Source: a virus | DNA length: 64,000 bases | Strand: one strand, 5' to 3' | IMG/VR virus record: IMGVR_UViG_3300018890_000002 | Coordinates: 1-64,000 of that record | Shown here: piece by piece, positions 36,387-59,284 of the stretch | Layout: each line of letters starts with the position of its first letter | Position numbering within the stretch: position 1 is the stretch's first letter | Position numbers and translations under genes: made by a program | Notes under the pieces: model-generated | The model's database searches: none | Told to the model about the DNA's origin: nothing | Seen by the model: the letters and a program-made list of their open reading frames with translations, nothing else

Positions 36387-36458
36387 AAGTCCATAGTTTA
36401 GTAGATAGAATACGGAACTTCTAATTCCATGACCTCAGTGCGATTCTGAGTGGACTTA
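36387..36458 (+). tRNA. tRNA-Arg (anticodon UCU)
   Basis: A full cloverleaf. Acceptor AAGTCCA/TGGACTT (7 bp), D stem GTTT/GAAT, anticodon stem GGAA/TTCC with 7-base loop CTTCTAA (anticodon TCT at 36420-36422), T stem CTCAG/CTGAG with loop TGCGATT, discriminator A. CCA is not encoded. The T loop has G instead of the usual T at its second position. AGA is the favoured Arg codon of this AT-rich genome, so the tRNA probably supports late gene translation. Hairpins TTGGT/ACCAA and AAGGGA/TCCCTT precede it at 36329-36385. Confidence 0.85.
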
Positions 36459-45233: not shown

Positions 45234-45917
45234 TTAGTAAGACTCTATCTCTGTTATTGCTTTAGCGTTTATTACATTTATATCTTCTACTGCTCGTTTC
45301 TCTTGTTTCATATTTTGTTCTATTCGCTGTCTTTCCTCTAAGAGTTTTTTGATTTTTTCATCCATTGCTTGAGGGTTTTGTTTTAGTTTAGTTAGTTGTT
45401 TAGTTCTTTCTTTTGTTTGTATTTCTTCTAAGTGTTCTTGTAAGGATTCAGTTCCCATTATTGCTTTAGTTAATGTATGAACTTTTCCTATTACTTCAAC
45501 TATATCTTTTAAGTCTCTTGGATTGATTTGAGGCATTTCTTCTAGGTCATATCCTTCTTCGTTTGCACTCTTAAATGCTTGAGGATATTGATTGAAGTAT
45601 GCGTTAATTAGTTGTGCAGTCTTTCCTAGTTGAGCAAGAGCTAAAGTATCTGACATATTAGATTCACCTAATATTGATGTTACTTTACCTTCTGTCATCC
45701 TCCTTCTTAACTTAGAGTCTAAGAGGTTTCTTTGATGTGTCCATTTATCTCTATGAGCTTTGTCGGTTAGAGTATTAACTGATATTTCATGTTTTTCAGC
45801 TAATCGTTTCATTGTGTATGGTCTATGACATTCTATCCCTTCTTTATTGAGATAGATTTCTCCTACCATATAATCTAATCTGATTGAATCCCAATCCCAT
45901 TTTTTGGGGAACGGCAT
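45234..45917 (-). CDS. Terminase small subunit candidate
   Basis: 227 residues. HRPYTMKRLAEKHEISVNTL, then T-D-K-A-H-R-D-K-W-T-H-Q-R near residues 32-65, is the helix-turn-helix pattern of phage small terminase-like proteins (A-x-x-x-x-V/I-S-x-x-T-L-x-x-x-A-x-x-x-x-W). The rest is helical, ending in a coiled coil. It would bind packaging start sites. It is 10.5 kb from terL and next to the large noncoding region, where a pac or cos site could lie. Confidence 0.65.
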   Translation of the reverse strand: MPFPKKWDWDSIRLDYMVGEIYLNKEGIECHRPYTMKRLAEKHEISVNTLTDKAHRDKWTHQRNLLDSKLRRRMTEGKVTSILGESNMSDTLALAQLGKTAQLINAYFNQYPQAFKSANEEGYDLEEMPQINPRDLKDIVEVIGKVHTLTKAIMGTESLQEHLEEIQTKERTKQLTKLKQNPQAMDEKIKKLLEERQRIEQNMKQEKRAVEDINVINAKAITEIESY

Positions 45918-46647
45918 ATATTATTCCTTGAATATCGTATAAATTTTTAGTCTTTCTATTTTATTTTACTTGCTTTTGAATAATTATATTTTGTGTATTG
46001 TTTTGGGTTGTTTATGTTGATTAGTTGTTAAAGGGTTTGGTGTTTAGTAACTCACACTTTCGTTGCATACGCACCTTCCCACATCCCAGCCACCTATTAC
46101 CTCTCAGCACTCACAGTCCTATAGCGTATCACTTGACAGCCTGTCCATCATCTGCTATCCTCTATTACTCTTCATAAGCTCTACTTATAACTATAACCCT
46201 TACTCATTAGCTATTCTCATTTGACGTATTCCCTATCATCTGTTACCCTATGATCCTTATATAAGTAGCTATCCCCGCTGTAAGCCGTTATCTGGTACGG
46301 CTTAGCACTACTATCCACACAGAGGCCTCTAACGTCGCATCCTAGCCACCTTATCTCTATATCCTATGTGTTCTATCTTTAGCTATATGACTAAGCTTAG
46401 ATAACCTACTAACTCTTATGACTTATAGTATGGTTGTAATATATAAGTAGTATACTAGGAGTTAGTCTTAAGACTATTAGGAACTCTAATGGCTTACCCC
46501 CTTTACAATACCTCTATTATCGTGCGAGTATAGATACATCGAATAAGAGAGACGGGCGAGCCAAGCTTAACCTTTACTCATAACTCGATTCAGAATCTTA
46601 ACCTCTAGGACATAAGCAAAACTCATAAGACAAAAGCTTAAAAAGAG
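45918..46647. other. Noncoding region, left part: pyrimidine-rich repeats
   Basis: No ORF. From about 46040 to 46440 the plus strand is rich in C and T. Visible structure: an 8-bp hairpin TAAGCCGT/ACGGCTTA at 46281-46304; a 14-base perfect palindrome TAGTCTTAAGACTA near 46463; an imperfect 31-base direct repeat beginning TTGAC at 46133 and again at 46221, with a shared CATCATCTG/TATCATCTG core; and a repeated C-x-AGCCACCT box near 46087 and 46335. Iterons of an origin or terminase recognition sites are possible. Confidence 0.4.
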
Positions 46648-46676
46648 TTGACATCTTAAGAGCAACCCGCTAGAGT
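46648..46676 (+). promoter_or_regulatory. Candidate promoter for the structured RNA
   Basis: TTGACA at 46648-46653, 17-base spacer, TAGAGT at 46671-46676, with TATAGA overlapping just after. A perfect -35 is rare in this genome. Confidence 0.5.
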
Positions 46677-46682
46677 ATAGAG

Positions 46683-47345
46683 AGTTAAGAAACCACAAGC
46701 CCGCTGAGTGCTGGCATTACATTATCGGAAAGACTCGGATCTGAGTGATCCCTAAGTCAATCCATCCCCTCGGATCTAGGCTGCTTTTAAAGTTGTCTAG
46801 CCCGAAAGGGAAAAACTACAGTTACATCTTGCGGTCAAACTTTCTCTTATGAGTTAGCTCGATCGTAATAGGTTGGCCTCACAGGCTGAATAACTTCGAG
46901 GCTGTTTTCGAGTCAATCCTTCGGGATAGTCACTCCAATAGCTAGACATAATTTAATAAATAAGAGTTAACGCTTGAAAGTCTGGCGGTTTGCTCATCTT
47001 AGAAATTGGTAACTGAGATGAACAAAGCTACTTAAAGATTAGAGAGTATTACTCCAACAGAACCTAGACAACCAAATAGTTTTACCTGCAATGGTAGCTT
47101 GACAAGCAATCTCGCTTTATACCATTATCTGCGGTAAGTAAGTTTTAACTCTAATTTCTATGGGTTACTAACTACTGAGACAAAGATAATCAAATGATAC
47201 AAGTACAGTATAAAGCACTAAAACATCTATCCCTATTTTCAACTAGCAATTGATTAGGGAGTGCGATAGATGGAGATTAAGCGAAGTAATAGGCGATCGA
47301 AAGTACAAAAGTATAGACGATCTATGGTTCGATTCCCCTAGCAGG
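46683..47345 (+). ncRNA. Large structured RNA candidate
   Basis: About 660 bases without coding text but dense in stable hairpins. Examples are GGATC/GATCC (46737-46751), CCC-GAAA-GGG (46801-46810), GCCT/AGGC (46876-46886), ATCC-TTCG-GGAT (46916-46927), CATCTTAG/CTGAGATG (46995-47020), AATGGTA/TACCATT enclosing GCTT/AAGC (47090-47126) and CTAT-CCCTA/TAGGG-ATAG (47227-47269). It ends in a T-arm-like GGTTCGATTCC (47326-47336). GAAA and TTCG tetraloops are meaningful only on the plus strand, supporting rightward transcription. Size, phage setting and nearby tRNA-like elements recall GOLLD or ROOL class RNAs; I cannot confirm either. Confidence 0.5.
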
Positions 47346-47383
47346 TATTACCGGTAAACTATCCCCGGTGACAAGTGAGAAAA

Positions 47384-47779
47384 ATGACTACTCAAAAAGA
47401 ACAAATCGATCTATCTCGTTTTTTTCCCTCTCAATGGTTGCAAGATGATTACACACTTAAAGCAAGCGAGACAGACCCGGAGGAAGAAGTTAAAATTCAG
47501 AAAGTCGAGATAGTGGAAACACTCCCCACAGTACGCAACACTGTCAAAGGGCGACTACCTGAGTATTTAAAGCTCCTTTTCATCCTTTCCTCTATGAGCT
47601 ATAAGACAGAGGATAACAAAGCTAGTTATCGAATCCTTATCTGTAACAAATCACCCAACACCTCAACCGCTTATGATTCTTTTTACTTAGTTCTAGACAC
47701 TAAGAACAACTACCGAGGTTTTGCAGACAGTGAGTTAAAAGCTTGTGAGTTAGCTGAACTGATTATCAAGAAACCTTAA
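47384..47779 (+). CDS. Unknown protein, first gene of the 47-53 kb block
   Basis: 131 residues from ATG 47384; an upstream in-frame GTG is possible. Acidic N-terminus, then alpha/beta (KLLFILSSMSYKTEDNKASY). Codon use is richer in C and G than in the virion genes. Preceded by the structured RNA region with an ACCGGTAAAC loop element. No family recognised. Confidence 0.6.
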   Translation: MTTQKEQIDLSRFFPSQWLQDDYTLKASETDPEEEVKIQKVEIVETLPTVRNTVKGRLPEYLKLLFILSSMSYKTEDNKASYRILICNKSPNTSTAYDSFYLVLDTKNNYRGFADSELKACELAELIIKKP

Positions 47780-47791
47780 CTCTAATCTAAT

Positions 47792-47866
47792 CACTGCTGT
47801 ATAGTTCGTTGCTATGCAGTGGTATTTCTCCCCTATACCGTTAAAACTGGGGAGATGTTAACCAAA
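47792..47866 (+). promoter_or_regulatory. Two-hairpin leader
   Basis: CACTGC/GCAGTG (47792-47797 with 47816-47821) encloses ATAG/CTAT with a 7-base T-loop-like TTCGTTG. Next, CTCCCC/GGGGAG encloses a TACCGTTAAAACT loop that recurs, with changes, in the leader at 48370-48405. It ends before ATG 47882. Confidence 0.5.
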
Positions 47867-47881
47867 CACAAAGGATCTAAA

Positions 47882-48328
47882 ATGTCTAACACTATCCCAG
47901 TAATTGATTCTACATCTAATCTCTGCCAGCATCAATTCGAGAATCGCTACTCTATCTACTGTCATGATCCCTTTGAAAACCAACCTATCAGCAATGAATT
48001 AATCGAGCAATTAGCTACTCAGTTAAGTGCAATTAGCCCTGTAATAGTTACTACCAAAATGGCTAGCGGTAGAATTGGTAAGTTTTTAACGGCGGATAGT
48101 TTCGATGTCTTACAGAACCAAGTCAATCAGAAGGAGGAGAATAAAGACTTTTTAGCAGAAGGGTTTAGGGGTTACTTACTAGACATCACTCACTCAGCGT
48201 TTTATAAAGGTTATCCCAAACTATTCTGGATTAATTTTGATATTGACAGAGTAGACTTAGAACTTTTTGAATATGGCGAAATAGGTTATTATCAACTGAT
48301 TAACAGGTTTGCAGTTCCTAGAATTTAA
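47882..48328 (+). CDS. Unknown protein
   Basis: 148 residues from ATG 47882, after AAAGGATC; the open frame runs back through the leader hairpins, which are unlikely to be coding. Alpha/beta, acidic, no membrane segment; the first 40 residues contain three Cys/His (LCQHQFENRYSIYCHD) that might bind metal. No family recognised. Confidence 0.6.
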   Translation: MSNTIPVIDSTSNLCQHQFENRYSIYCHDPFENQPISNELIEQLATQLSAISPVIVTTKMASGRIGKFLTADSFDVLQNQVNQKEENKDFLAEGFRGYLLDITHSAFYKGYPKLFWINFDIDRVDLELFEYGEIGYYQLINRFAVPRI

Positions 48329-48336
48329 CCCTTCAC

Positions 48337-48405
48337 TACTCCTATAGTCTGTCGTTAGCTATAGGGGCATTGATACCTAACACCGATAAAACTAGGTATT
48401 TTATC
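48337..48405 (+). promoter_or_regulatory. Two-hairpin leader
   Basis: CTCCTATAG pairs with CTATAGGGG (9 bp) around the loop TCTGTCGTTAG. Then ATACCTA pairs with TAGGTAT around ACACCGATAAAAC. Both stems differ in sequence from the leader at 47792 but keep the same order and the ACCG-T/A-TAAAAC loop, which is covariation-like evidence for structure. ATG 48430 follows. Confidence 0.55.
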
Positions 48406-48429
48406 CACCAATACTTAGGAAGAAAGACA

Positions 48430-48789
48430 ATGACTGATATAGAAAAGTTAGAAGCAATTCTTGAGATGAGAGGGAGAACGCTGCCGACAATTCAAAGAGT
48501 AGGGGAAGTAGTTAAAAGTGAAAGATGTAAAATGTGGCATCATCTAGCAATTGTTAACATTACATCATACGGTATAGGTTATATTCTAACAGTTGACAAA
48601 ACCCATCCGACTCTTAAGTATCACTACATCGCTGTTACTGCGGATTATGAACCAATAGGGATCTACAAATATATAGAAGATGCTCAACATTTTCTAGTAG
48701 GGGATCTAAAATACGCAGCAGTTCTCGGAGGTAAAAGTCAGGAAGCCAAACCTAGACCTTATGATGCTGTGTTAGGTGGCAAGAGATAG
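48430..48789 (+). CDS. Unknown protein
   Basis: 119 residues from ATG 48430, preceded by AGGAAG. Alpha/beta (GYILTVDKTHPTLKYHYIAV). The C-terminus repeats AVLGGK twice (YAAVLGGKSQEAKPRPYDAV). No family recognised. Confidence 0.6.
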   Translation: MTDIEKLEAILEMRGRTLPTIQRVGEVVKSERCKMWHHLAIVNITSYGIGYILTVDKTHPTLKYHYIAVTADYEPIGIYKYIEDAQHFLVGDLKYAAVLGGKSQEAKPRPYDAVLGGKR

Positions 48790-48796
48790 TTAATTT

Positions 48797-48876
48797 TCTC
48801 AGACTCAATGGTGAGAGATAGTGCAATCATTATCTACTAGGTTCGATCCCTAGCTGAGATCTTCCCTATATGGGAG
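48797..48876 (+). promoter_or_regulatory. tRNA-like leader A plus hairpin
   Basis: TCTCAG/CTGAGA forms an acceptor-like helix closing three arms: CTCA-ATGG-TGAG, AGATAGTG-CAAT-CATTATCT, and a T arm CTAGG-TTCGATC-CCTAG (48797-48859). The middle arm has a tetraloop, so there is no 7-base anticodon loop and it is not a functional tRNA. A second hairpin CTTCC/GGGAG follows (48861-48876), then AAGGAG and ATG 48902. Confidence 0.6.
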
Positions 48877-48901
48877 TTCACTTAAGACAAAGGAGAATAT
48901 C

Positions 48902-49198
48902 ATGTCTACTGCAATCAACAAACAAGTCAAGCAAATAATGTCTAATTTCCCTTACTACTTGGGAGAATATTTGATAGTAAAGGAGACTAAGATTACTACA
49001 CATTTAGGTAGTGAATTTGCAATCTATCGAATAGAAATAATAGTGGGGGATGTTGTAAGATATTTAGATTTAATCACTACTGTCTTTCAATGTTTTAAAG
49101 GGGTTGGCGGTTTCTATGGAGATATCCGCTCAAGTCATCGGATAGCAGAGATAATGTGTGACTCATTAGCCGTTCTAGATTACCTTGAAGAGAGATAA
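48902..49198 (+). CDS. Unknown protein
   Basis: 98 residues, ribosome binding site AAAGGAG. Alpha/beta with a Gly-rich turn (FKGVGGFYGDIRSSHRIAEI). Flanked on both sides by tRNA-like leaders. No family recognised. Confidence 0.6.
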   Translation: MSTAINKQVKQIMSNFPYYLGEYLIVKETKITTHLGSEFAIYRIEIIVGDVVRYLDLITTVFQCFKGVGGFYGDIRSSHRIAEIMCDSLAVLDYLEER

Positions 49199-49207
49199 AC
49201 ATTCATC

Positions 49208-49284
49208 AATCTACAGCCAATAGGTGGCTACTAAGTAATTAGGTTCGATCCCTAAGTAGATTATTCCCAATATGAGTTATTGGG
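49208..49284 (+). promoter_or_regulatory. tRNA-like leader B plus hairpin
   Basis: AATCTAC/GTAGATT (7 bp) closes a D-arm-like AGCC-AATAGGT-GGCT and a T arm TTAGG-TTCGATC-CCTAA (49208-49262); the anticodon arm is absent. A CCCAATA/TATTGGG hairpin follows (49266-49284), then TAGGAGG and ATG 49303. Same T loop as leader A. Confidence 0.6.
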
Positions 49285-49302
49285 GTTTATTAGGAGGATC
49301 AA

Positions 49303-52300
49303 ATGTTTAAAAAGTCTGAGCTAAAAACTATTGCTAACTGTCAGCAAGCTCTCAGAAGTTTAATTGATGTCGAGTTCTTTTGCTACGATGTCAAGACTAT
49401 TTCTTTCTATTTCGGTACAACAAAGATCATCCTTAACAATGCTGACTCTAAAGCAATTGTGGATAAGGGGCCGAAGTTAGCCGATCTACAATTAGCCTGC
49501 ATGAACTTCTCAGCAACTTATAATTATAATGTTGTCTGCAAAGTGAACAATGAAGGATTGCTAGAAAGCACTACTGCTATTTATCAGTGGGATTCTACTA
49601 CTGAGAGGATGGTATTACTCCCTCTTGATGAAAATTTCCAAGCATTTGAATGTCCTCCACTTCCTGATGATGAGACAGTAGCAAATCTTGTCGATCGTCC
49701 GATTGTTCCGTTTGATTCAGAGACTAACACAGAAGTTAAGACCGAAAAAATTGAAGTAAAACCACAATCTGAGAAAGTCAAAATCGAGAAAACTCAAGCG
49801 AGCGAACCTATTACGCCAGAACTTGTAGAGGATATTACACCGATCAAGCTTCCCTCAGAAATTGGTGTTTATATCGTTCTTTCTGATAAAGAGAATCAAT
49901 CAGTCAAGAAGCGTCTCCCCATCTCATTAGAATCAATCAGACCGCATTTAATGGCTTGGTTGTCTGGTACGGATCAACATTATCAAGGGCAGTTAGCAAA
50001 GTTTAAAGAAGCAATCAAGAGTAGCAAACATAATGCACTAACTCTCTACCTCTACCGTCCTTATACGTGGCAGGTGATGGACGTAGCAGGAGATAAACAA
50101 CTGAGAAAAGTTGAGGTAACATCTGCTAAAACTCCTGAGATTAGAACCCAAAAGAAAGGAAGTATTACGCAAAACTCAAGGGATGCGATCCCGGAGTTGG
50201 GGTCAATGTACACTATCTCACCCGTTAAAATTTTGGAGTCTGGTAACATCTACTTAGCTCAGACTTACATAGAGTTAAGTGTGGATAATGATTACCTGCT
50301 ACGATCCCGTAAGATAGCGATCTTTGAAAATGGCACTCTGAAATATCATTCAGAATTGATTGAAACTGAAAGGGATAAGCATGATATTCACCCGTTAGTT
50401 GAGGCGGATGGTAAAAGGATATTTCCGCAGATGTCTATTGCTCATATTGAGTTACAAACGTTAGAACCTAACCCTAATAACCCGGAGTATTATCTCAACG
50501 TCAAAAAACCCCACTACGAACCTGTAATAGGTGGCAAGCTAGTATTAAAATCTAGTATCACTCCCGATACAGATATGAGTCAATTTGTGAAGGTAGGGAA
50601 TGATTATTTAGAATATAATACCTATCTCAACACTCCAATAAAATTTGAGGGATTCAAACACCCTAATATCTCACCTAAAGCACCAAAAAAACATGAGATA
50701 ACTCAGAGGCAGAACGTAAAACCCGTCAAGATTCACAATGAGAAAGTAGTCAGCGGACAGATAGAATTTACTGATGTAGTCTCTACCGTGCCAATGTTAC
50801 TCAGACTTACTCCTTCTCAAACAGGGTATGCTCTAGTTGGTTTACCTCTCAAATTACCTGATGACTTTACCTACGATCTAGCGCGATATATTGCATCTAA
50901 TTTAGGACAAAACTCGATTGGTTATCTTAACTCCGAGATACAACGGGTTAAAAGCTCCCCTAGCTTGATGATCGGTAGGTTTGACAAATATCAGCTATTA
51001 TCAGCATTGGAAAAATTAGCAAAAGGAGTGTTAGCAGAGGAAAAACTAGACCCCAAAGGAGTGTTAGAGAGTAAAAATAAGCTCAAAGCATATATGGGCA
51101 AGCAGGATTTCTACTCATCATCAGTTGACCCTTACTTCTCTTTCTACCCTTTAGCTAGTGTCAAGATAGTGCAAGAGACAGAAAGCCTAAAGTATAGCTA
51201 CCGTCTGACTAATTTCGGAGACAGTCGAGGGTTAATCAAGAATAATCTCTCATCAGTACAGACCTGGATTCAACGGATCAGTTACAATCTCAAGAATTAC
51301 TTTGGAGTCAAAAAACCTGACTTTAACGAGGTAAAAAACTACCTGAAGGATAACTTTAAATTCAAAAACTGTAATCTAAAGGTCTACTATTCTACTGGGA
51401 TCTTTTTTGAAGTCTGGCATCTAGATCAAATGGTAGCTAAGCAATTAATTAGCATAATTGATCCGGCTAATACAGAGAAAGTCTGGAACATCTCAGTTGT
51501 TAATATCGCCAGAAATATCCAGTTTGGTGATAATCGGATCTTTGAAAAAGTCTTAAAGTGTAACAACTTAATAGACTCTGATCTAATACAGTTCGCCAAG
51601 TCTCAACTCTCAAAAGTAGTAGACAAATTTATCACTGCTAACGAGAAAAAATTAGTAGGTGAGGGAAAAATAAAGCAGACTACAGCAGTTAAGGAAGTAG
51701 TAGGATTTGATAAGACTAGCCACGGGTTTAGTAACATTAAGTCTACCTTCTTAAGGTTTATTACTCCTTTCTCTATTGAATCAGAAGTAGATAAAGGTAA
51801 GCTATTCAACCTTAGAACGGGTAAGATATTAGACCGTCATTCTGCTAATGACCTATTCGAGACAATGGTTAAGAATTGGAAACAATGGGGTAGAGATAAA
51901 GATTCTACAATTCATTTAGGAGGATATGAGTTTAAAAAACCTAATCCTGGTAAGTTGATGCTTGAGATACATCACAAGGTATCGGATAATCCTGAGTTAG
52001 ACAAAATTATCTGGCCCGAAGTGATCGAGATATGGTGGCAACTGACAAACGAGCCAATAGGCTTTAGAACATCATCGGGAGTAGTCTTAACACCTTGGTC
52101 TATTCACTCTAATAGAGTTGATATCTGGGAGTATAGGATCAAAATGCAAAAGATCGACATTTTACGGGATCAGAAAACTAATGAAAGTAAACCCGATAGA
52201 ATCAAGTCACATTTACAGTTGTCTATAGAGAGATTGACTGAGATACTGGATAAAACTTATCCCATCTGGTATCAACAAATATCAGAGGATGTAAGGAAAC

Positions 52301-52356
52301 ATTTAGACGCTTTAGAGGAAGCTTTAGAACTAGCTAAAGAGTCAGATAACGTCTAA
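49303..52356 (+). CDS. Very large protein of unknown function
   Basis: 1017 residues with a strong TAGGAGG ribosome binding site. About 1-130 alpha/beta; 140-180 a Lys/Glu/Thr-rich linker; 180-480 beta-rich; then a large mixed region (LKLPDDFTYDLARYIASNLG near 530; GIFFEVWHLDQMVAKQLISI near 700; VIEIWWQLTNEPIGFRTSSG near 905) and a helical C-terminus. No signal peptide, membrane segment, Walker motif or recognisable nuclease or polymerase motif. Codon use is more GC-rich than the virion genes. It dominates the 47-53 kb operon, so it is probably the effector of that block, but I cannot name it. Confidence 0.8.
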   Translation: MFKKSELKTIANCQQALRSLIDVEFFCYDVKTISFYFGTTKIILNNADSKAIVDKGPKLADLQLACMNFSATYNYNVVCKVNNEGLLESTTAIYQWDSTTERMVLLPLDENFQAFECPPLPDDETVANLVDRPIVPFDSETNTEVKTEKIEVKPQSEKVKIEKTQASEPITPELVEDITPIKLPSEIGVYIVLSDKENQSVKKRLPISLESIRPHLMAWLSGTDQHYQGQLAKFKEAIKSSKHNALTLYLYRPYTWQVMDVAGDKQLRKVEVTSAKTPEIRTQKKGSITQNSRDAIPELGSMYTISPVKILESGNIYLAQTYIELSVDNDYLLRSRKIAIFENGTLKYHSELIETERDKHDIHPLVEADGKRIFPQMSIAHIELQTLEPNPNNPEYYLNVKKPHYEPVIGGKLVLKSSITPDTDMSQFVKVGNDYLEYNTYLNTPIKFEGFKHPNISPKAPKKHEITQRQNVKPVKIHNEKVVSGQIEFTDVVSTVPMLLRLTPSQTGYALVGLPLKLPDDFTYDLARYIASNLGQNSIGYLNSEIQRVKSSPSLMIGRFDKYQLLSALEKLAKGVLAEEKLDPKGVLESKNKLKAYMGKQDFYSSSVDPYFSFYPLASVKIVQETESLKYSYRLTNFGDSRGLIKNNLSSVQTWIQRISYNLKNYFGVKKPDFNEVKNYLKDNFKFKNCNLKVYYSTGIFFEVWHLDQMVAKQLISIIDPANTEKVWNISVVNIARNIQFGDNRIFEKVLKCNNLIDSDLIQFAKSQLSKVVDKFITANEKKLVGEGKIKQTTAVKEVVGFDKTSHGFSNIKSTFLRFITPFSIESEVDKGKLFNLRTGKILDRHSANDLFETMVKNWKQWGRDKDSTIHLGGYEFKKPNPGKLMLEIHHKVSDNPELDKIIWPEVIEIWWQLTNEPIGFRTSSGVVLTPWSIHSNRVDIWEYRIKMQKIDILRDQKTNESKPDRIKSHLQLSIERLTEILDKTYPIWYQQISEDVRKHLDALEEALELAKESDNV

Positions 52357-52369
52357 CCAAGCTAGCTAG

Positions 52370-52400
52370 GGTATATCTGGTAAATTATCCTAGCTTTAGC
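52370..52400 (+). promoter_or_regulatory. Leader hairpin
   Basis: AGCTAGG pairs with CCTAGCT around GTATATCTGGTAAATTAT; the loop keeps the GGTAAA of the leader before 47384. A 90-base spacer follows before ATG 52488. Confidence 0.4.
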
Positions 52401-52487
52401 TACTAACTTAGATAACGTGCATAATCTGCATACCCAACTATCTATTATTAGTAGTGAACTGTAAACACTCAACATAGGACAGAAACA

Positions 52488-53381
52488 ATGCTTAACATTA
52501 ACGACGCGATCGCTTCTTTTGGTAACATGACTCTAGCAACCGTGGCAGAAGAGTCAATGATTCTCGAATACAAGCAAGCAGTTGAACGGAAAAATAAGTT
52601 AGGACAAGTTACATCTTACGCGGTTAAAGGTGATGCAACACTTGAGTCAATCTCGATTAATTGGTGTCAAGATAACGACGGTTCACAGTGTCTTCATCTT
52701 AAGAAAAAAACTGAATTGCTCGCTTCTTTCAATCTCCGATCTAATGGCACGATTGAATGGCTTCCTAATACTACATTCAACGTTCGATCGACATTAATTG
52801 CAAAACCAATTGATCCAGAACAAGACACAATAGTTTCTTTTTCGCTTTATAACTTCTTTGATCAGTGGATTAAGTCTAAGCCTTTCTCTGTTGGTCTTAA
52901 TCAACTAGCACAGGAGATGATCTACCCTCCTGCTGTTGTTAAGCTTCTATTGCTGTTTATTTCTTACATGACAGAGCGCACCCGCCAAGCTGAATTAACA
53001 GGTAAACTCTCTCAAGAAGCTAACCTGACAATTGACATGGATCGAGTATCTGTGATGTATCACGATCTGTTACGTCGCCTAGTTGGTGATAAAAAGCGGA
53101 TGCAAAGGTTATATGCAGGTGCAAGTGACTTCATCGCTCTGCCAGCTAACAGGGATGAGATTTTAGCTTTAGTAGCAGAAGAAGTCGATCAACCCGAACC
53201 AATAGCAGAAGAAAAAACCATCGATCCTGACAACACAGAAGACGATCAGGATATTATGTCTCTACCTTCAGAACCCCCCGACGATAAGAAATTTGAAGCA
53301 GATTTTAAGGAATTAGTAGAAAGTTCTGAACCGATCGAGGTAACAGTTAACCCTGATACTGAGGAAACACAACCAGAATAG
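52488..53381 (+). CDS. Unknown protein with acidic tail
   Basis: 297 residues. A GCGATCGC octamer (cyanobacterial HIP1 sequence) lies in codons 6-9. The N-terminal 110 residues are beta-rich, 120-225 helical (QMIYPPAVVKLLLLFISYM-like), and the last 70 are very acidic (TIDPDNTEDDQDIMSLPSEP). No membrane segment is certain. A terminator follows. No family recognised. Confidence 0.7.
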   Translation: MLNINDAIASFGNMTLATVAEESMILEYKQAVERKNKLGQVTSYAVKGDATLESISINWCQDNDGSQCLHLKKKTELLASFNLRSNGTIEWLPNTTFNVRSTLIAKPIDPEQDTIVSFSLYNFFDQWIKSKPFSVGLNQLAQEMIYPPAVVKLLLLFISYMTERTRQAELTGKLSQEANLTIDMDRVSVMYHDLLRRLVGDKKRMQRLYAGASDFIALPANRDEILALVAEEVDQPEPIAEEKTIDPDNTEDDQDIMSLPSEPPDDKKFEADFKELVESSEPIEVTVNPDTEETQPE

Positions 53382-53405
53382 TCTAACCCTCAAATAGTCA
53401 ATCTA

Positions 53406-53439
53406 GCCTCTATCCTTTAATTAGGGTAGGGGCTTTTTT
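53406..53439 (+). terminator. Intrinsic terminator
   Basis: GCCTCTATCCT (53406-53416) pairs with AGGGTAGGGGC (53423-53433) with two G-U pairs, then TTTTTT. It ends the 47-53 kb operon. Confidence 0.8.
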
Positions 53440-53466
53440 GTGTCTTTCAATAGTTGATTTTCTTTT

Positions 53467-54219
53467 TTAGATATTACAAGAGATAACTTTTAGCTTTGTT
53501 ATAGTGCGTCCATCAATTTTTTTATTGTGATCTTTTATCGTGTACCAATAAGCTAGATCACTTGCTTTTGCAACTTTTTTAATATTTAATATCCTGTAAA
53601 TTTCTTGTAATTTTTTCTTAATTACTGACTTATCAAGTAATTGTTCTGGCTCTAAATTAAGCATATTCATAATTTCGCTACCTAAGTTAATTAAACCTTC
53701 ATCTATTCCTATTTGATTTTTAATAAGTTTTTCAGAAAACTGCAAAGCTCTCATTTTATCAAAACCTAATTTTTCATGAGCTTCCTTAATTAAAGGATGT
53801 ATTTTAGAGATAGAAATTCTATTTTCTGGATTATTTACATACTCTGCACAACATTTTTTAAAACTACTATTAATTTTGACATCGTTGACTTTATTTTTAT
53901 TATTTGTAATGGTTACATCTGCCTTTAATACTTTTTCTTTTTTAGGTAAATCTATTTGGATTGTAGGTTTAATATCTCTAAAAACACGGTCTTTATTATA
54001 AATAGGTTTATGAAGATTTATACAGTAAAGTTCAATAATATCTCTATCTACTTCATTTTTAATAATCATATATTCAACATAGTAAATGTACTCTTTCCAT
54101 TCTTGTGCTTCCGATAAATGCTGATAGAGACGATTTTTTAGGTTGTAGGTTTTTCCTATATTAGGTTTTTCTATCTTTTTTAAATTTTTACCTACTAGAA
54201 TTTTGGGGAGGATACTAAC
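53467..54219 (-). pseudogene. GIY-YIG nuclease fused to the helicase C-terminal domain, N-terminus damaged
   Basis: ATG 54069 gives 200 residues, but the frame is open to 54219 and the upstream part is protein-like: KKIEKPNIGKTYNLKNRLYQ, then WKEYIYYVEY, IIELYCINLHKPIYNKD. These are GIY-YIG elements (I-G-K-T-x-N-L-x-x-R-L, E-L-x-x-I-N-x-x-K-P-x-Y-N), but the first G-Y-I-Y strand is missing, a TAG lies at 54222-54220 and no ATG precedes. The C-terminal 130 residues (PLIKEAHEKLGFDKMRALQF, KKVAKASDLAYWYTI) match the C-terminal domain of the helicase-like proteins. Either an unusual start or a truncated homing nuclease. Confidence 0.6.
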
Positions 54220-54254
54220 CTATGTCAGAAAACACAAACTAATAGGGGAGAGTT

Positions 54255-54542
54255 ATGGAAACTATAACTGCTGAAATAGTTAATTTTCGTAGAGGTAATG
54301 AAAAACAAGGAGTTAGACTTTGTGTAAGATTAGATATCAGGGGAGAAAAAGTCTACCACTACACTAATCTTTTAACTCGTAATGAAGAAAACTTCTGGAT
54401 TGATTGGACAGAAAATAACTTTCATAATCAACCAAAACTTAAGGTTAAACCCGGTGATAAGGTTTCTTTTGTTGGTGAGATTGAGGATAATCGTTCAAGC
54501 TGGGGAGGATACAAAATATTAAAAGGAGAAGTTATTAAGTAG
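54255..54542 (+). CDS. Small OB-fold-like protein
   Basis: 95 residues with GGGGAGAG before ATG. Beta-rich; LKVKPGDKVSFVGEIEDN then a Gly turn and K-I-L-K-G-E-V-I looks like the last strands of an OB fold, as in small single-strand DNA-binding or replication proteins. Its start is only 35 bases from the damaged start of the divergent GIY-YIG gene. Function is inferred only. Confidence 0.5.
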   Translation: METITAEIVNFRRGNEKQGVRLCVRLDIRGEKVYHYTNLLTRNEENFWIDWTENNFHNQPKLKVKPGDKVSFVGEIEDNRSSWGGYKILKGEVIK

Positions 54543-54588
54543 ATTGTATTCTTCGTCAACCTTATAATTTTCTCGTCAATATTGTAAC

Positions 54589-54628
54589 TTCTCTCGATTT
54601 TTTTGTAAATTTTGAGAGAGGATTTTTT
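54589..54628 (+). terminator. Intrinsic terminator
   Basis: TTCTCTC (54589-54595) pairs with GAGAGAG (54614-54620) around an 18-base loop, followed by GATTTTTT. It separates the OB-fold-like gene from the next. Confidence 0.6.
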
Positions 54629-54686
54629 GCTGCTAATCGCATCTTTTTGTGATTTTGCCCACCTTAGATTTTTTTGGAGAATTCCC

Positions 54687-54872
54687 TTGCCTAGAATATT
54701 TTTCGATAATGCTGAAGATGCAGAGAAAGTATCCGAAAATATTGAGGAACCAGTAGAAGACAACCTTTCTATCAATGTAGATGCTGAAGAGTTAAATTTA
54801 GCATTGAAGCAAGTAAAAATTTCCCCAACAGCTTATTCAATTGCTGAAGTTACAGAACCATTACCACAATAA
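54687..54872 (+). CDS. Small acidic protein, TTG start
   Basis: 61 residues from TTG 54687, which has TTGGAGA 7 bases upstream; the longer frame from 54612 starts inside the terminator and is hydrophobic without sense. Acidic (AEDAEKVSENIEEPVEDN). No family recognised. Confidence 0.5.
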   Translation: MPRIFFDNAEDAEKVSENIEEPVEDNLSINVDAEELNLALKQVKISPTAYSIAEVTEPLPQ

Positions 54873-54893
54873 CCCTAGAACCAGGAAAAAATT

Positions 54894-55100
54894 ATGACTA
54901 CTTGGCAAAATGTATCTGATGAAGTTTTTCTTCAAGCTCATATCAATCATGTAATCCGAGTTTGGGGTCATTGTCCTGATATTCCAGAAGATAAAGTTTC
55001 CTTAGTAATAGAAAGAGCTAAGAGACATTATGAGATGTTCCCAGACCAAGTAGAAGCTTTAGAAAAGGAGATTGCTAAGTTAATAATGGAAACTAAGTAA
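54894..55100 (+). CDS. Small helical protein
   Basis: 68 residues, mostly helical, with a Pro/Asp turn (VWGHCPDIPEDKVSLVIERA). No family recognised. The next reading frame begins over its stop. Confidence 0.6.
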   Translation: MTTWQNVSDEVFLQAHINHVIRVWGHCPDIPEDKVSLVIERAKRHYEMFPDQVEALEKEIAKLIMETK

Positions 55101-55393
55101 TTTTCTATCGCTCAAATTGGAGCTTTGAAGATACAGCGAAAAAAGCACCTTACTGCATCTACCAACAATTATGGTACGGAGAATTTCCCTACGGAACTTG
55201 GTCTTGAGCGATTCGTAAATGTTTAGTAACTCAAGAAGTCAAAATATCAATGATTTGTACTGACATTAATCCATGAGGTTTAAGTGATTCTGATTATTGG
55301 GTAGAAAAGTGTAAGAGTTACGTTCCTGAGAGTATATCTGCTGATTTAGTAGCTACTAATATTTTCCACACTCTAAAACTAGCTAACTCTTAG
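55097..55393 (+). pseudogene. Frame with two in-frame TGA codons and no ATG
   Basis: From 55097 a frame encodes FYRSNWSFEDTAKKAPYCIY, then GEFPYGTWS-TGA-AIRKCLVTQEVKI, then CTDINP-TGA-GLSDSDYW, and ends at TAG 55391-55393. TGA at 55205-55207 and 55274-55276 both sit where Trp would fit (T-W-S-W and N-P-W-G). TAA closes the frame at 55094-55096 and only ATT or GTA is available as a start. If expressed, this would be about 98 residues. No family recognised. Confidence 0.5.
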
Positions 55394-55419
55394 AGGAAAT
55401 ATTTAACTTCTGAGAGTTA

Positions 55420-55436
55420 CTAGGTGCAATCCCTAG
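55420..55436 (+). promoter_or_regulatory. T-loop-like hairpin leader
   Basis: CTAGG-TGCAATC-CCTAG, a 5-bp stem with a 7-base loop whose TGC start matches the T loop of the phage tRNA-Arg (TGCGATT). An AACT/AGTT hairpin lies just upstream (55405-55418). Leader of 55510. Confidence 0.45.
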
Positions 55437-55509
55437 AGAGTGTTTAGTCTAGGATACTTCCTTTACTTACAAGTAAGGTTTTCAACTACCCCTATGACTT
55501 CTTACGAAC

Positions 55510-56013
55510 GTGAAAGCTCAAACTAGCTCCTTAATTACTCCCATTCACTTCCTTCTATCTAGTGCTATTTATGATTTAGTAGCACATTCCGACTCAAAGT
55601 TCTATTATCTAAGAGCTTTATTCATATCCCCTCAGTGCTGTAGTGTGGAGAAATTTGAGCAGGTGATAGAAGATTATTCCTTAGATATTGAGGAAGAAAT
55701 TGAATCTGCTACTGAGAAAGTTATTGATTTAGTAGTAGGACTCAATAACCTATGGAAAACTCTGCCTATTACTTTTGAGGATTTACTAGAGACTTCTGAG
55801 GTAGATGCTGCTTTTGAACTTTTAGGAGCTACTGGAGATAGTACAAGGTTCTGGGATAATTATGAGTTACAAGATTTTGGATTAACTCAATTACCTCCTT
55901 TAGTTACAATTGAGTCTTTATATGAGGAAGCATATCTCATATTAGAGAAAGTCCGAGTAGCTAAGAGGAAAGTAATGCTTGCAAAGTTTTCAGATATGAG
56001 GAAAGCTGCTTAG
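55510..56013 (+). CDS. Acidic helical protein, unknown
   Basis: 167 residues from GTG 55510. Mostly helical, acidic, Leu-rich (ESATEKVIDLVVGLNNLWKT). The C-terminus turns basic (VRVAKRKVMLAKFSDMRKAA). No family recognised. Confidence 0.55.
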   Translation: MKAQTSSLITPIHFLLSSAIYDLVAHSDSKFYYLRALFISPQCCSVEKFEQVIEDYSLDIEEEIESATEKVIDLVVGLNNLWKTLPITFEDLLETSEVDAAFELLGATGDSTRFWDNYELQDFGLTQLPPLVTIESLYEEAYLILEKVRVAKRKVMLAKFSDMRKAA

Positions 56014-56026
56014 TACATTCAATGCT

Positions 56027-56043
56027 AGGGAAGTGACTAACCT
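56027..56043 (+). promoter_or_regulatory. Leader cassette Y, copy 1
   Basis: AGGGAAGTGACTAACCT, identical over 17 bases to 60771-60787; both lie 25-29 bases before a start codon. Here CTAGG/CCTAG closes it into a hairpin (56025-56045). Confidence 0.5.
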
Positions 56044-56067
56044 AGTTATCATCATAAGGAGAAATAA

Positions 56068-56247
56068 ATGACAAATCAATCTATCGAAACAGCACAGAAA
56101 TTAGTCGAGTTCTATCAATCTCAATTAGAGTTAACTCCTCAGTTCAAACTCTTAGAAACTGCTAAAAAAAATCTAGCAGAACTAAAAGATAAGGAGAGAG
56201 AAGACTATTGGAAAGGTAAAACTATCAGCATTGTGACGGGAGATTAA
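56068..56247 (+). CDS. Small helical protein
   Basis: 59 residues, AAGGAG ribosome binding site 8 bases upstream. Entirely helical and charged (TAQKLVEFYQSQLELTPQFK). Between leader cassettes Y and X. The first helical half is similar in style to the proteins at 62052 and 62748. No family recognised. Confidence 0.6.
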   Translation: MTNQSIETAQKLVEFYQSQLELTPQFKLLETAKKNLAELKDKEREDYWKGKTISIVTGD

Positions 56248-56253
56248 TCGTCT

Positions 56254-56347
56254 TTCAAGGCACTCTATCCCTAAGAATGAACTCCACATCATTTATCTAA
56301 GTAAAGTGTCCTCAATGAGCAATGAGAGCCATCTGAGAGGATATTAA
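56254..56347 (+). promoter_or_regulatory. Leader cassette X, copy 1
   Basis: 94 bases that align without gaps to 61930-62023. The last 20 are nearly identical (AGCCATCTGAGAGGATATTA). The 5' part keeps a helix with changed bases: CACT with AGTG here, CATCTTAT with ATAAGGTG in copy 2. This compensatory change supports an RNA structure. The next gene starts at 56394. Confidence 0.6.
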
Positions 56348-56393
56348 GCTTAGGAAGATACTAACTAAGTTCTCAATAATTACAGGAGAAGCC

Positions 56394-57113
56394 ATGAATT
56401 CTAGTACCTTATTTTTCTACTTCAATAAAACTCAAGAATGTTTTGCAGTAGAAAGTAGAAGCTCAGGTTACTCAAAAGATAAAAGTAAAAAGTTCTATCA
56501 TTTAAAACCTAATGATGAAGCAGCTAGAAAATTGATGGAGTACGTAAAATTTAAAAACTGGACTGAGTATATCTCTGAAAAGAATACTCCTAAAATTATA
56601 CTAATAGGAGATCCTAACTCTAGCCATTTTTTTAGATTAGAGTACGAAGGCTATCAAGTAGATTTTACACCTGACAAATTTGCTGAAGAACCAAATAAGG
56701 AGAACACAATGAATTACACTGCTGAACATAAAGGTTTTACTCTCAACATCAATGAAGTATTAGACGCTCAACAAAATCCTATTTACTTTGAAGGAGAATG
56801 TAAAGAAATCAATTTTAGTGTTAAAGGATTTCATAAGGAATACCAACACTCAATGCAAGGTTTCTTCAAGTTAGTTTATAAGTTTAAAGATGAGGTAGAT
56901 AAACTGACAGAAGAAAAACAAGAAGATAAAGTTCTCAACCAACTCCATAAACAACTAGACAGATTAAGAGAAAGAGATAAAGAGATTAATTATCCGCCCT
57001 TTGAATTAAGAGGAGAGTTAATCAGTATTCATCATCTTTTTAGCGGTATTACAGAGCTAACTTTGGAAGATGTAAAGAGAATTTATTTTGAACGTGCAGA
57101 GAGTAACCAGTAA
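56394..57113 (+). CDS. Unknown protein
   Basis: 239 residues, ribosome binding site CAGGAGA. The N-terminal 100 residues are alpha/beta (FFYFNKTQECFAVESRSSGY); the C-terminal half is helical with KLTEEKQEDKVLNQLHKQLD as a coiled coil. A second ATG at 56709 follows an AAGGAGAA and could give a shorter product. No family recognised. Confidence 0.65.
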   Translation: MNSSTLFFYFNKTQECFAVESRSSGYSKDKSKKFYHLKPNDEAARKLMEYVKFKNWTEYISEKNTPKIILIGDPNSSHFFRLEYEGYQVDFTPDKFAEEPNKENTMNYTAEHKGFTLNINEVLDAQQNPIYFEGECKEINFSVKGFHKEYQHSMQGFFKLVYKFKDEVDKLTEEKQEDKVLNQLHKQLDRLRERDKEINYPPFELRGELISIHHLFSGITELTLEDVKRIYFERAESNQ

Positions 57114-57134
57114 TTGATTAAAGGGAGAAAAATC

Positions 57135-57371
57135 ATGAGTGTAAATAGTTCTGAATTCTACAAACTTCAAACGAGATTAGAAGATATAAAAAATAATCTC
57201 AAACGTTATAAATCTACTGATCTATCTTTTGCCTACAATGTTCAAGAGTTAGAAGAAACAGCAGATGAAATTTTAAAGTCTTTAGCTACTGAATGGTTAA
57301 CTTGTAAAGAGTATAGAGAAGAATATGGAGAAGACGTGGATTATAACAATGATGATGAATTATTAGATTGA
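57135..57371 (+). CDS. Small helical acidic protein
   Basis: 78 residues from ATG 57135 with AAAGGGAG upstream. Helical (FYKLQTRLEDIKNNLKRYKS), acidic C-terminus (EYGEDVDYNNDDELLD). Ends in TGA. No family recognised. Confidence 0.6.
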   Translation: MSVNSSEFYKLQTRLEDIKNNLKRYKSTDLSFAYNVQELEETADEILKSLATEWLTCKEYREEYGEDVDYNNDDELLD

Positions 57372-57447
57372 CCTAAAAGTTGAAATCTAAGAGTAAAATG
57401 AATATACAGAGCTAATAAAATATGTCAAAAATCTTGTGTCAGTGACC

Positions 57448-57472
57448 TATTTTCTAAAATAAGTGCTATAAT
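57448..57472 (+). promoter_or_regulatory. Extended -10 promoter with palindromic operator
   Basis: TGCTATAAT ends at 57472, 27 bases before ATG 57500. An inverted repeat TATTTT-CT-AAAATA (57448-57461) sits where a regulator would block sigma binding. No clear -35. Confidence 0.5.
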
Positions 57473-57499
57473 ACATTTATAGTTTAAAATGTGTCAACC

Positions 57500-59284
57500 A
57501 TGAAATATCAGATTCAAGCTCCAAGTAATGCTCTTTATGTTAGTGATTTCCTAAGTGAAATTCCTAAAGGGATAATTGACAAAGCAGCGACGGGGGTAGG
57601 TATGAGTTCTATTGCTTTAGAAGATAAATATCCTACTATTATTGCTGTTCCTACTATTGAAGTGATTAGAAACAAAACTGCACAATATCCTAATGACAGA
57701 CGTTCTGAATCTGTTTTCGGGTACTATGCAGGAGTAAAAGATAAAAGCGTAATTGAGTATCTTAATTCTACTGCAATTCCTAAGATTTTAGTAACTTATG
57801 ATAGTTTTTATAAGGTGGCTAAACTAATAGACAAGACTATTTATCGAGTAGTTGTAGATGAATTCAGTGATTTACTAGATGCTTACAGCTACAGAGATAA
57901 AGCTATTGAACATTTACTATCAGCAGTCCAAGATTTTGAGTATGTATCTTACATCTCTGCTACTCCATTAAAAGAAGAGTATTATCCTGAAGCTCTTAAA
58001 GGTTTAGATGAGTATGAAATAGTTTGGCAAGGTTCAGTAAAGATTAAAGTTGAGAGAAAAAAGACAAATAAGCCTTATAAATTAGCTTGTAACATCATTG
58101 AAGCCTATAAAGCAGGAGGAAAAGAGGGGTTATTAATGCCTAATGGTCACTATTCTAAGTCTGCTTACTTTTTTGTTAACTCGGTTAACTCAATTGCAAG
58201 TATTTTAGAAGCTTCAGAATTAGAACCTAGTGAAGTGAGAGTAATTTGTGCTAATAACGAGGTAAACCAGAAAAAATTAGAAAATTATCCCATTGAAACT
58301 GCTTTAGCTCCTGAGAAAAAGTTTAATTTTATTACCAGTACAGCTTTTAAAGGTTGTGATTTCTACTCTGAAAGTGGGGTTACTTACATTATTAGTAACA
58401 CTTCTAACAGCAATACCTTAATTAGTATTGATACTGATGTTAAACAAATTGCAGGAAGGATTCGTAACTCTAATAACCCTTTCAATAACCACATTTACCA
58501 CATCTATAATACTGATAATTCACTTTTATCGGCTGAAGAGTTTGAGAAATTAGTTAAAAAGAAAACAAAAGCTACAGAATCCACTATTTCTCTATTTTAT
58601 AAAGGTAATGAAGAAGAAAGAGAAACTTATTTAGCTAATTACTATTTAAGAGCTAAGTGTAAATTTAGAGATGACGACTATACTTACCTCACTGATGAGA
58701 ATAATATTATCTTTAACCACTATGCGGTATTAAATGATAAGCGTAGATGGGAAGTTAGTAGTAATGTATATAGAGATGGAGTTTCTATTCGAGAAGCTTA
58801 TCTTAAAGCAGGATGTTTTGATATTTCTACTTATCAAGATTTTGAGAAAATAGAGGATAATGGCTTTTTAAATAAGCTTACTAATGGCAGCTTTAAGGAG
58901 TATTGTCTAAAATATATCAACAACACTGAAGAAAGAAGCTATATAGGTGATAGATTTCCAGTAATTAAAGAAGCATTTAGTCGACTAGGTGCTGATAGAA
59001 TGAAAGCTTTAAGTTATAATCCTTCAAGATTTCTATCTGAGATGCAGGTTAATTCAGATTCTACTCAAAACTACATAATTAGAGATTTAGAAAACACACT
59101 TGTAGTAGGACAAGAATACCTTTCAGCAGAAATAAAGGCTATGTTCAATAATATTTATTATGCAGTGGGGATAAAAAAGAAAGCTAAAGCTACTGATATT
59201 GAGGCTTATTGTGACATTGAGAAAAAACAAAGAAGATTTAAAGGTGTTCTTAAAAATGTAATTGAGATTAAAGCTTGGAAATAA
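57500..59284 (+). CDS. SF2 helicase-like protein with lysine-less Walker A, copy 2
   Basis: 594 residues from ATG 57500; GTG 57491 is also possible. Motif I IDKAATGVGMSSIALEDKY (no Lys), motif II VVVDEFSDLL, motif III SYISATPLKEEY, motif V TSTAFKGCDFYS, motif VI QIAGRIRN. It aligns with copy 1 throughout (IPKGIIDKAATGVG and LPQGIFNKGATGVG; IIAVPTIEVIRNK and IVAVPTIEIISNK). Its C-terminal domain (about 465-594) holds FPVIKEAFSRLGADRMKALS and KKKAKATDIEAYCDI. Own promoter and terminator. Probably a DNA-remodelling or replication protein. Confidence 0.7.
   Translation: MKYQIQAPSNALYVSDFLSEIPKGIIDKAATGVGMSSIALEDKYPTIIAVPTIEVIRNKTAQYPNDRRSESVFGYYAGVKDKSVIEYLNSTAIPKILVTYDSFYKVAKLIDKTIYRVVVDEFSDLLDAYSYRDKAIEHLLSAVQDFEYVSYISATPLKEEYYPEALKGLDEYEIVWQGSVKIKVERKKTNKPYKLACNIIEAYKAGGKEGLLMPNGHYSKSAYFFVNSVNSIASILEASELEPSEVRVICANNEVNQKKLENYPIETALAPEKKFNFITSTAFKGCDFYSESGVTYIISNTSNSNTLISIDTDVKQIAGRIRNSNNPFNNHIYHIYNTDNSLLSAEEFEKLVKKKTKATESTISLFYKGNEEERETYLANYYLRAKCKFRDDDYTYLTDENNIIFNHYAVLNDKRRWEVSSNVYRDGVSIREAYLKAGCFDISTYQDFEKIEDNGFLNKLTNGSFKEYCLKYINNTEERSYIGDRFPVIKEAFSRLGADRMKALSYNPSRFLSEMQVNSDSTQNYIIRDLENTLVVGQEYLSAEIKAMFNNIYYAVGIKKKAKATDIEAYCDIEKKQRRFKGVLKNVIEIKAWK

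Follow-up and report, generated by a model that had tools for sequence, protein, structure and literature searches.

What kind of signal lies between consecutive genes of a phage operon when the leaders there fold as tRNAs would, yet without an anticodon loop? The question is raised by two leaders in a window of 64,000 nucleotides (positions 1 to 64,000 of IMG/VR record IMGVR_UViG_3300018890_000002), and a sequence-only reading of them had offered either cleavage by RNase P or RNase Z to separate mRNAs, or control of translation, as the answer. The whole record is of 81,218 bp and comes from a tailed phage that encodes the large terminase subunit (TerL) and a major head protein, the host being likely cyanobacterial as judged from homologs of one phage protein, which are found mostly on cyanobacterial plasmids. 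Relatives were gathered from IMG/VR via TerL and an alignment of TerL relatives, and gave phages with 70-84% TerL identity to the window's phage. The same operon is present in six large relatives (G001, G002, G005, G006, G007 and G008), whose DNA coverage is nearly complete. TerL scans of cellular genome contigs gave no relative, three distant TerL relatives are without such elements, and matches in pattern scans of viral contigs were confined to phages already in this comparison. The 1017-aa protein encoded behind the second leader retrieved no viral contig and no annotated phage as sole query.

Anatomy of the elements and their leaders

As judged from sequence and computed folding, the two leaders carry members (E1 and E2, Table 1) of a family of tRNA-like elements that lack an anticodon and occupy the gaps between successive genes of one operon. 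The folds bear out what had been described for both, that is an acceptor helix, a D-arm and a T-arm with the loop TTCGATC, together with a middle arm ending in a tetraloop in E1 and none in E2, and the order of small hairpin, ribosome binding site and new gene after each element also stands. Folded alone, either element has the tRNA-like structure as its computed MFE, and over the full leader of E1 this structure is the MFE or lies no more than 1 kcal/mol from it. In E1 the middle arm is without a 7-nt anticodon loop, and U faces U at the first position of the acceptor.

The features of a tRNA that can be looked for outside the anticodon arm are found, namely a tRNA-type (7-bp) acceptor, a 5-bp T stem with a 7-nt T-loop and the D-loop GG. 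A tRNA gene was nevertheless rejected as the identity of E1 and E2, which neither ARAGORN nor Rfam calls (the latter even at E up to 5) and which have no 7-nt anticodon loop; the sole call of these programs in the window is a tRNA-Arg at 36387-36458. Also rejected were tmRNA, of which a model match and a tag reading frame would be expected and for which ARAGORN and Rfam gave no match at the elements, and any Rfam family, T-box and cobalamin riboswitches included, with none at gathering or relaxed thresholds. The small hairpins were considered as terminators and dropped, terminator-like patterns being at background across 45900-57500 (6 found, the E2 hairpin among them, against 6.5 expected).

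The set extends beyond the two leaders first seen, to E3, to record position 68493 and tentatively to E0. E3 has counterparts in G001 and G007. E0 belongs to some 1.1 kb of non-coding and strongly folded sequence (46225-47384) upstream of the operon, with a folding z of −3.9 for 46500-47385 (from 20 shuffles only) and no Rfam match in the structured region. One module of this region (about 46557-46866) is common to the window's phage and G001, and another (about 47076-47350) to it and G002, G005 and G008. The last 270 nt of the region, conserved in these three relatives, look like a further element, which encloses some 200 nt in place of an anticodon arm and has an imperfect T stem in the window's phage. 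A promoter-like TTGACA-17-TAGAGT at 46648-46676, with a similar TTGACA-17-TAGATT at the matching place in G001, is a possible start of the operon transcript.

Not all leaders of the operon are tRNA-like. Two genes of the window have long-hairpin leaders, and for one of them (the gene at 47882) the G007 and G008 orthologs carry T-arm leaders in their place. Across the phages a gene other than the ortholog of about 1000 aa is led by a long hairpin in three and by a T-arm element in two.

Table 1. Elements, hairpins and genes of the operon; positions are those of the window.
Feature	Position	Strand	Parts	Basis
E0 (tentative)	47083..47347	+	ends TACCTGC 47083-47089 / GCAGGTA 47341-47347; T-loop TTCGATT 47328-47334	sequence, conservation with G002, G005, G008; weak model match only
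Long-hairpin leader of gene at 47882, instead of tRNA-like element	47792..47823	+		
Long-hairpin leader of gene at 48430, instead of tRNA-like element	48340..48368	+		
E1, anticodon-less tRNA-like element with middle arm	48797..48859	+	acceptor UCUCAG 48797-48802 / CUGAGA 48854-48859; D-arm 48804-48815; middle arm 48816-48835, tetraloop CAAU; T-arm 48837-48853, loop UUCGAUC	MFE fold; model built without the window
Small hairpin 3' of E1, 2-nt gap	48862..48876	+		folding
98-aa gene, function unassigned, downstream of E1	48902..49198	+	SD about 48890-48895; ATG at 48902	orthologs in G007, G008
E2, anticodon-less tRNA-like element without middle arm	49208..49262	+	acceptor AAUCUAC 49208-49214 / GUAGAUU 49256-49262; D-arm 49215-49229; T-arm 49239-49255, loop UUCGAUC	MFE fold of element; model built without the window
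Small hairpin 3' of E2, 2-nt gap	49265..49285	+		folding
1017-aa gene, function unassigned, downstream of E2	49303..52356	+	SD about 49292-49297; ATG at 49303	orthologs in six of six relatives
E3, variant with T-loop TGCAATC	55386..55448	+		descriptor scan; weak model match (E 1.5)

Conservation in the related phages

The single-sequence folding energies of E1 and E2 are modest (z about −2), and being only mildly unusual they leave the case to rest on comparison with the relatives. In seven records, known tRNAs removed, T-arms with a TTCGAYY loop and a full 5-bp T stem occur 20 times on the operon strand and never on the other. Fifteen of them carry an acceptor, 6 bp or longer, that stands flush with the T stem, against a mean of 1.3 and a maximum of 5 when the upstream 60 nt were shuffled in 500 trials. 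A covariance model made from 14 elements of the relatives, with E1 and E2 excluded from training, finds E1 (E 2.1e-10), E2 (E 3.3e-8) and position 68493 (E 6e-5) as its only strong matches in the record. With 16 elements the model gives 19 matches over both strands of 906 kb, all 19 on the operon strand. Sixteen are those on which it was trained and three are additions, of which two score weakly. Across the six related phages the elements are mostly 27-63 nt upstream of start codons, again on the operon strand. Lack of structural recurrence in related phages had been set as part of what would overturn the first reading, and the outcome was the opposite, the same layout being conserved, with covariation, in the six.

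Five elements that resemble each other closely, from as many phages, have 97.5% of cells paired, as opposed to 28-43% with slid partners, and both sides have changed in 8 of 17 pairs, which none of 500 shuffles reached. For the whole element set, in an alignment that was itself fitted to the model, 92.6% are paired against 28-46%. The acceptor and T stem are partly selected features, most elements having come from a scan that required their pairing, whereas the D-arm and elbow were under no selection in that scan. Here 16 of the 17 TTC-loop elements have GG after the acceptor (9.4 as the shuffled mean), and 15 form a D-stem of 4 bp or more (9.8 as the shuffled mean). One G007 element combines the D-loop AATGC with the T-loop TTGGATT, against AATGG and TTCGATT in its closest relatives, so that the predicted tertiary pair 19-56 appears to have been swapped from G19-C56 to C19-G56. 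A second combination, TTTGC with TTGAAGT in the near-identical elements G002 135364 and G006 36628 (operon-strand coordinates), counts for little because the tRNA-like fold is not energetically favoured there. A possible G-to-A/C-to-T change of partners between G006 and G007 leaders was dropped, since G001 and G008 do not fit.

What is kept across the elements is an acceptor, mostly of 6-7 bp, flush on a 5-bp T stem to give a stack of 11-12 bp, a 7-nt UNNRA loop in the T-arm, and a GG in the D-loop set to pair with the T-loop, with no anticodon loop and no encoded CCA. A hairpin usually stands 3' of the element, and the following sequence folds at z < −1 relative to shuffles in 17 of 26 leaders. 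Much else varies. The middle arm is there in G002 and G006 but missing from G008 in otherwise matching elements, the D-stem is missing in one G008 leader, the first acceptor pairs are often A-U or a mismatch and not the G-C (G1-C72) of most tRNAs, 6-bp acceptors lack the seventh pair, and junction sequence and arm content differ widely. Before the ortholog of about 1000 aa the T-loop is TTCGATC in E2, TGCAAYK in G001, G002 and G006, TGTAATG in G007, TTTAACT in G005 and TTCGACT in G008. Since T-loop types interchange between orthologous leaders in this manner, it is the predicted shape that is conserved, and not the sequence or a tRNA identity.

Proposed processing of the message and the alternatives

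What might such a shape be for? We hold the chances about even that the elements are processing punctuation, read by host RNase P and/or RNase Z, and a shade under even that the phage family at large has host tRNA-maturation enzymes cut its message, with elbows throughout the operon and interchangeable T-loops marking the gene borders. In a long transcript each element would fold into the tRNA elbow with its 11-12 bp stack, and would be taken for a pre-tRNA by RNase P, cutting 5' of the acceptor, and/or by RNase Z, cutting 3' of it. The message would be divided into units with compact, protected ends and the downstream gene left with a short leader, such that the message of the next gene would begin with the small hairpin or the acceptor. 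Neither RNase III nor a lactamase-type RNase Z was found in nine phage records, and so any such enzymes used would be those of the host.

RNase P takes hold of its substrates along the T-arm/acceptor stack, with the elbow as the point from which it measures, and needs a T-loop while the D-loop seems dispensable (PMC4919913). The elbow and a continuous acceptor/T-arm stack of about 12 bp, as would be expected of a t-element-type substrate, are both found here. For the cyanobacterial enzyme a 3' CCA is detrimental and substrates without it are preferred (PMC4264200), a preference which the lack of an encoded CCA suits. The original proposal of RNase P or RNase Z cleavage or translation control may be taken as partly supported, in that the predicted anatomy fits recognition by these enzymes and the layout is conserved. 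The conserved stack, the T-loop, the D-loop GG, the one-strand intercistronic placement, the covariation and the interchange of T-loop types between orthologous leaders count for processing. Against it count the first pairs, often not G-C, the long-hairpin leaders at some orthologous genes, a cyanobacterial host that is deduced from homologs of one protein, and the energetics of the full leaders, the tRNA-like fold being more than 1 kcal/mol above the MFE in nine of 26, E2 included.

This last point bears upon the main rival, translation control, by which a regulatory leader shaped as a tRNA elbow would switch the downstream gene through an elbow-binding host or phage factor, or through an alternative fold pairing the SD region with the 3' strand of the T stem. 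Placement 27-63 nt before start codons would suit this. Over the whole E2 leader a fold in which the T-arm 3' strand pairs with the SD region is better than the tRNA-like fold by 4.7 kcal/mol (−27.7 versus −23.0, energies which exclude the elbow contact and the order of co-transcriptional folding), and there is similar competition in G002 135364 and G006 36628. However no such competition is seen in E1 and most leaders, the tRNA-like fold in 17 of 26 being the lowest in energy or no more than 1 kcal/mol above the lowest, and translation control seems a possible but unlikely account of the elements. It and processing are not mutually exclusive.

Substitution of tRNA-like and long-hairpin leaders for each other at orthologous genes would be expected if both served only stability, the element and hairpin shielding mRNA ends or slowing exonucleases while uncut and long hairpins being equivalent, and the well-folding sequence 3' of 17 of the 26 elements (z < −1 against shuffles) is in keeping with that. 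Retention of the T-loop, the D-loop GG and the flush 11-12 bp stack is then left unexplained, and so we regard a role in stability only as rather improbable. Binding of a small ligand by the T-loop junction, in the manner of a riboswitch, is less probable by some way: the elements include three-way junctions with T-loops, of which the UGCAA and UGAAA loops are ones that we take to resemble T-loops of known riboswitches, but there is no Rfam match, and junction sequence and arm content vary widely. Decayed tRNA genes without function are scarcely credible in spite of the clear tRNA resemblance and the genuine tRNA genes elsewhere in several phages of this group, given that 97.5% pairing is kept through two-sided changes and that the elements are restricted to leaders on one strand.

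Known systems and further leaders

The closest known idea to processing at these elements is that of the plant mitochondrial t-elements, tRNA-like structures in untranslated mRNA regions (for example the cox1 5' UTR) that are tied to the formation of mRNA ends and have been put forward as substrates of RNase P, although lowering plant RNase P had no effect on one such mRNA (PMC4368725). The phage elements differ in repeating through one operon, in having no anticodon arms and in being known from sequence. Non-tRNA substrates of bacterial RNase P include 4.5S RNA, tmRNA and polycistronic operon mRNAs (PMC4919913, PMC12016569), its mRNA targets being scattered cases (PMC12016569). These share with the phage elements an acceptor/T-arm-type stack inside a longer transcript, but each stands alone, and some have no shape recognisable as that of a tRNA, whereas the phage elements, predicted substrates, form a conserved operon-wide set with D-arm and elbow. 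In phage T7, RNase III sites lie between the early genes of a long early transcript. Structured intercistronic sites are common to both systems, and some leaders here are long hairpins, although most are tRNA-like. By analogy, processing would work as at plant mitochondrial t-elements or T7 RNase III sites.

Other likenesses are more distant. In tmRNA too an acceptor and T-arm are present with the anticodon arm missing or replaced, as by the 200 nt or so in E0, but the phage elements have no tmRNA model match and no encoded CCA. The tRNA-like structures of plant RNA viruses occupy the 3' end of the genome, and aminoacylation is common among them (PMC4810235); these are also viral RNAs imitating tRNA shape, whereas the phage elements are intercistronic and have no anticodon. 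Overall the elements are candidate members of the tRNA-like processing signals. No earlier report of a phage or bacterial system of this sort was found in the open-licence full-text literature, and if the processing interpretation is true the literature found would hold no earlier operon-scale system of t-element type from bacteria or phages. If the elements are cut, the phage would be commandeering RNase P or RNase Z to split up its message, and the elements would offer compact substrates for learning what these enzymes require. The set in any case provides many natural anticodon-free tRNA mimics, diverse in sequence and apparently selected for shape, with one apparent swap of an elbow pair, and it illustrates that tRNA gene finders can miss a whole class of tRNA-shaped elements.

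Some further structures were noted in these phages. At record positions of about 56026, 60767 and 68131 there is another repeated leader type, a hairpin around a GGGAAGTGACTAACC-like sequence before genes. G001 (L025) has its own repeated three-way-junction leader, for example at MTTQTQ genes, with the order GCTCTA, AGGTTCTTATATCYT, a T-arm with the loop TGAAARU, and TAGAGC. A tRNA-like gene that ARAGORN does not call lies on the minus strands of G002 (near 105093) and G009 (near 56696); its variable arm is long and its anticodon loop has about 18 nt.
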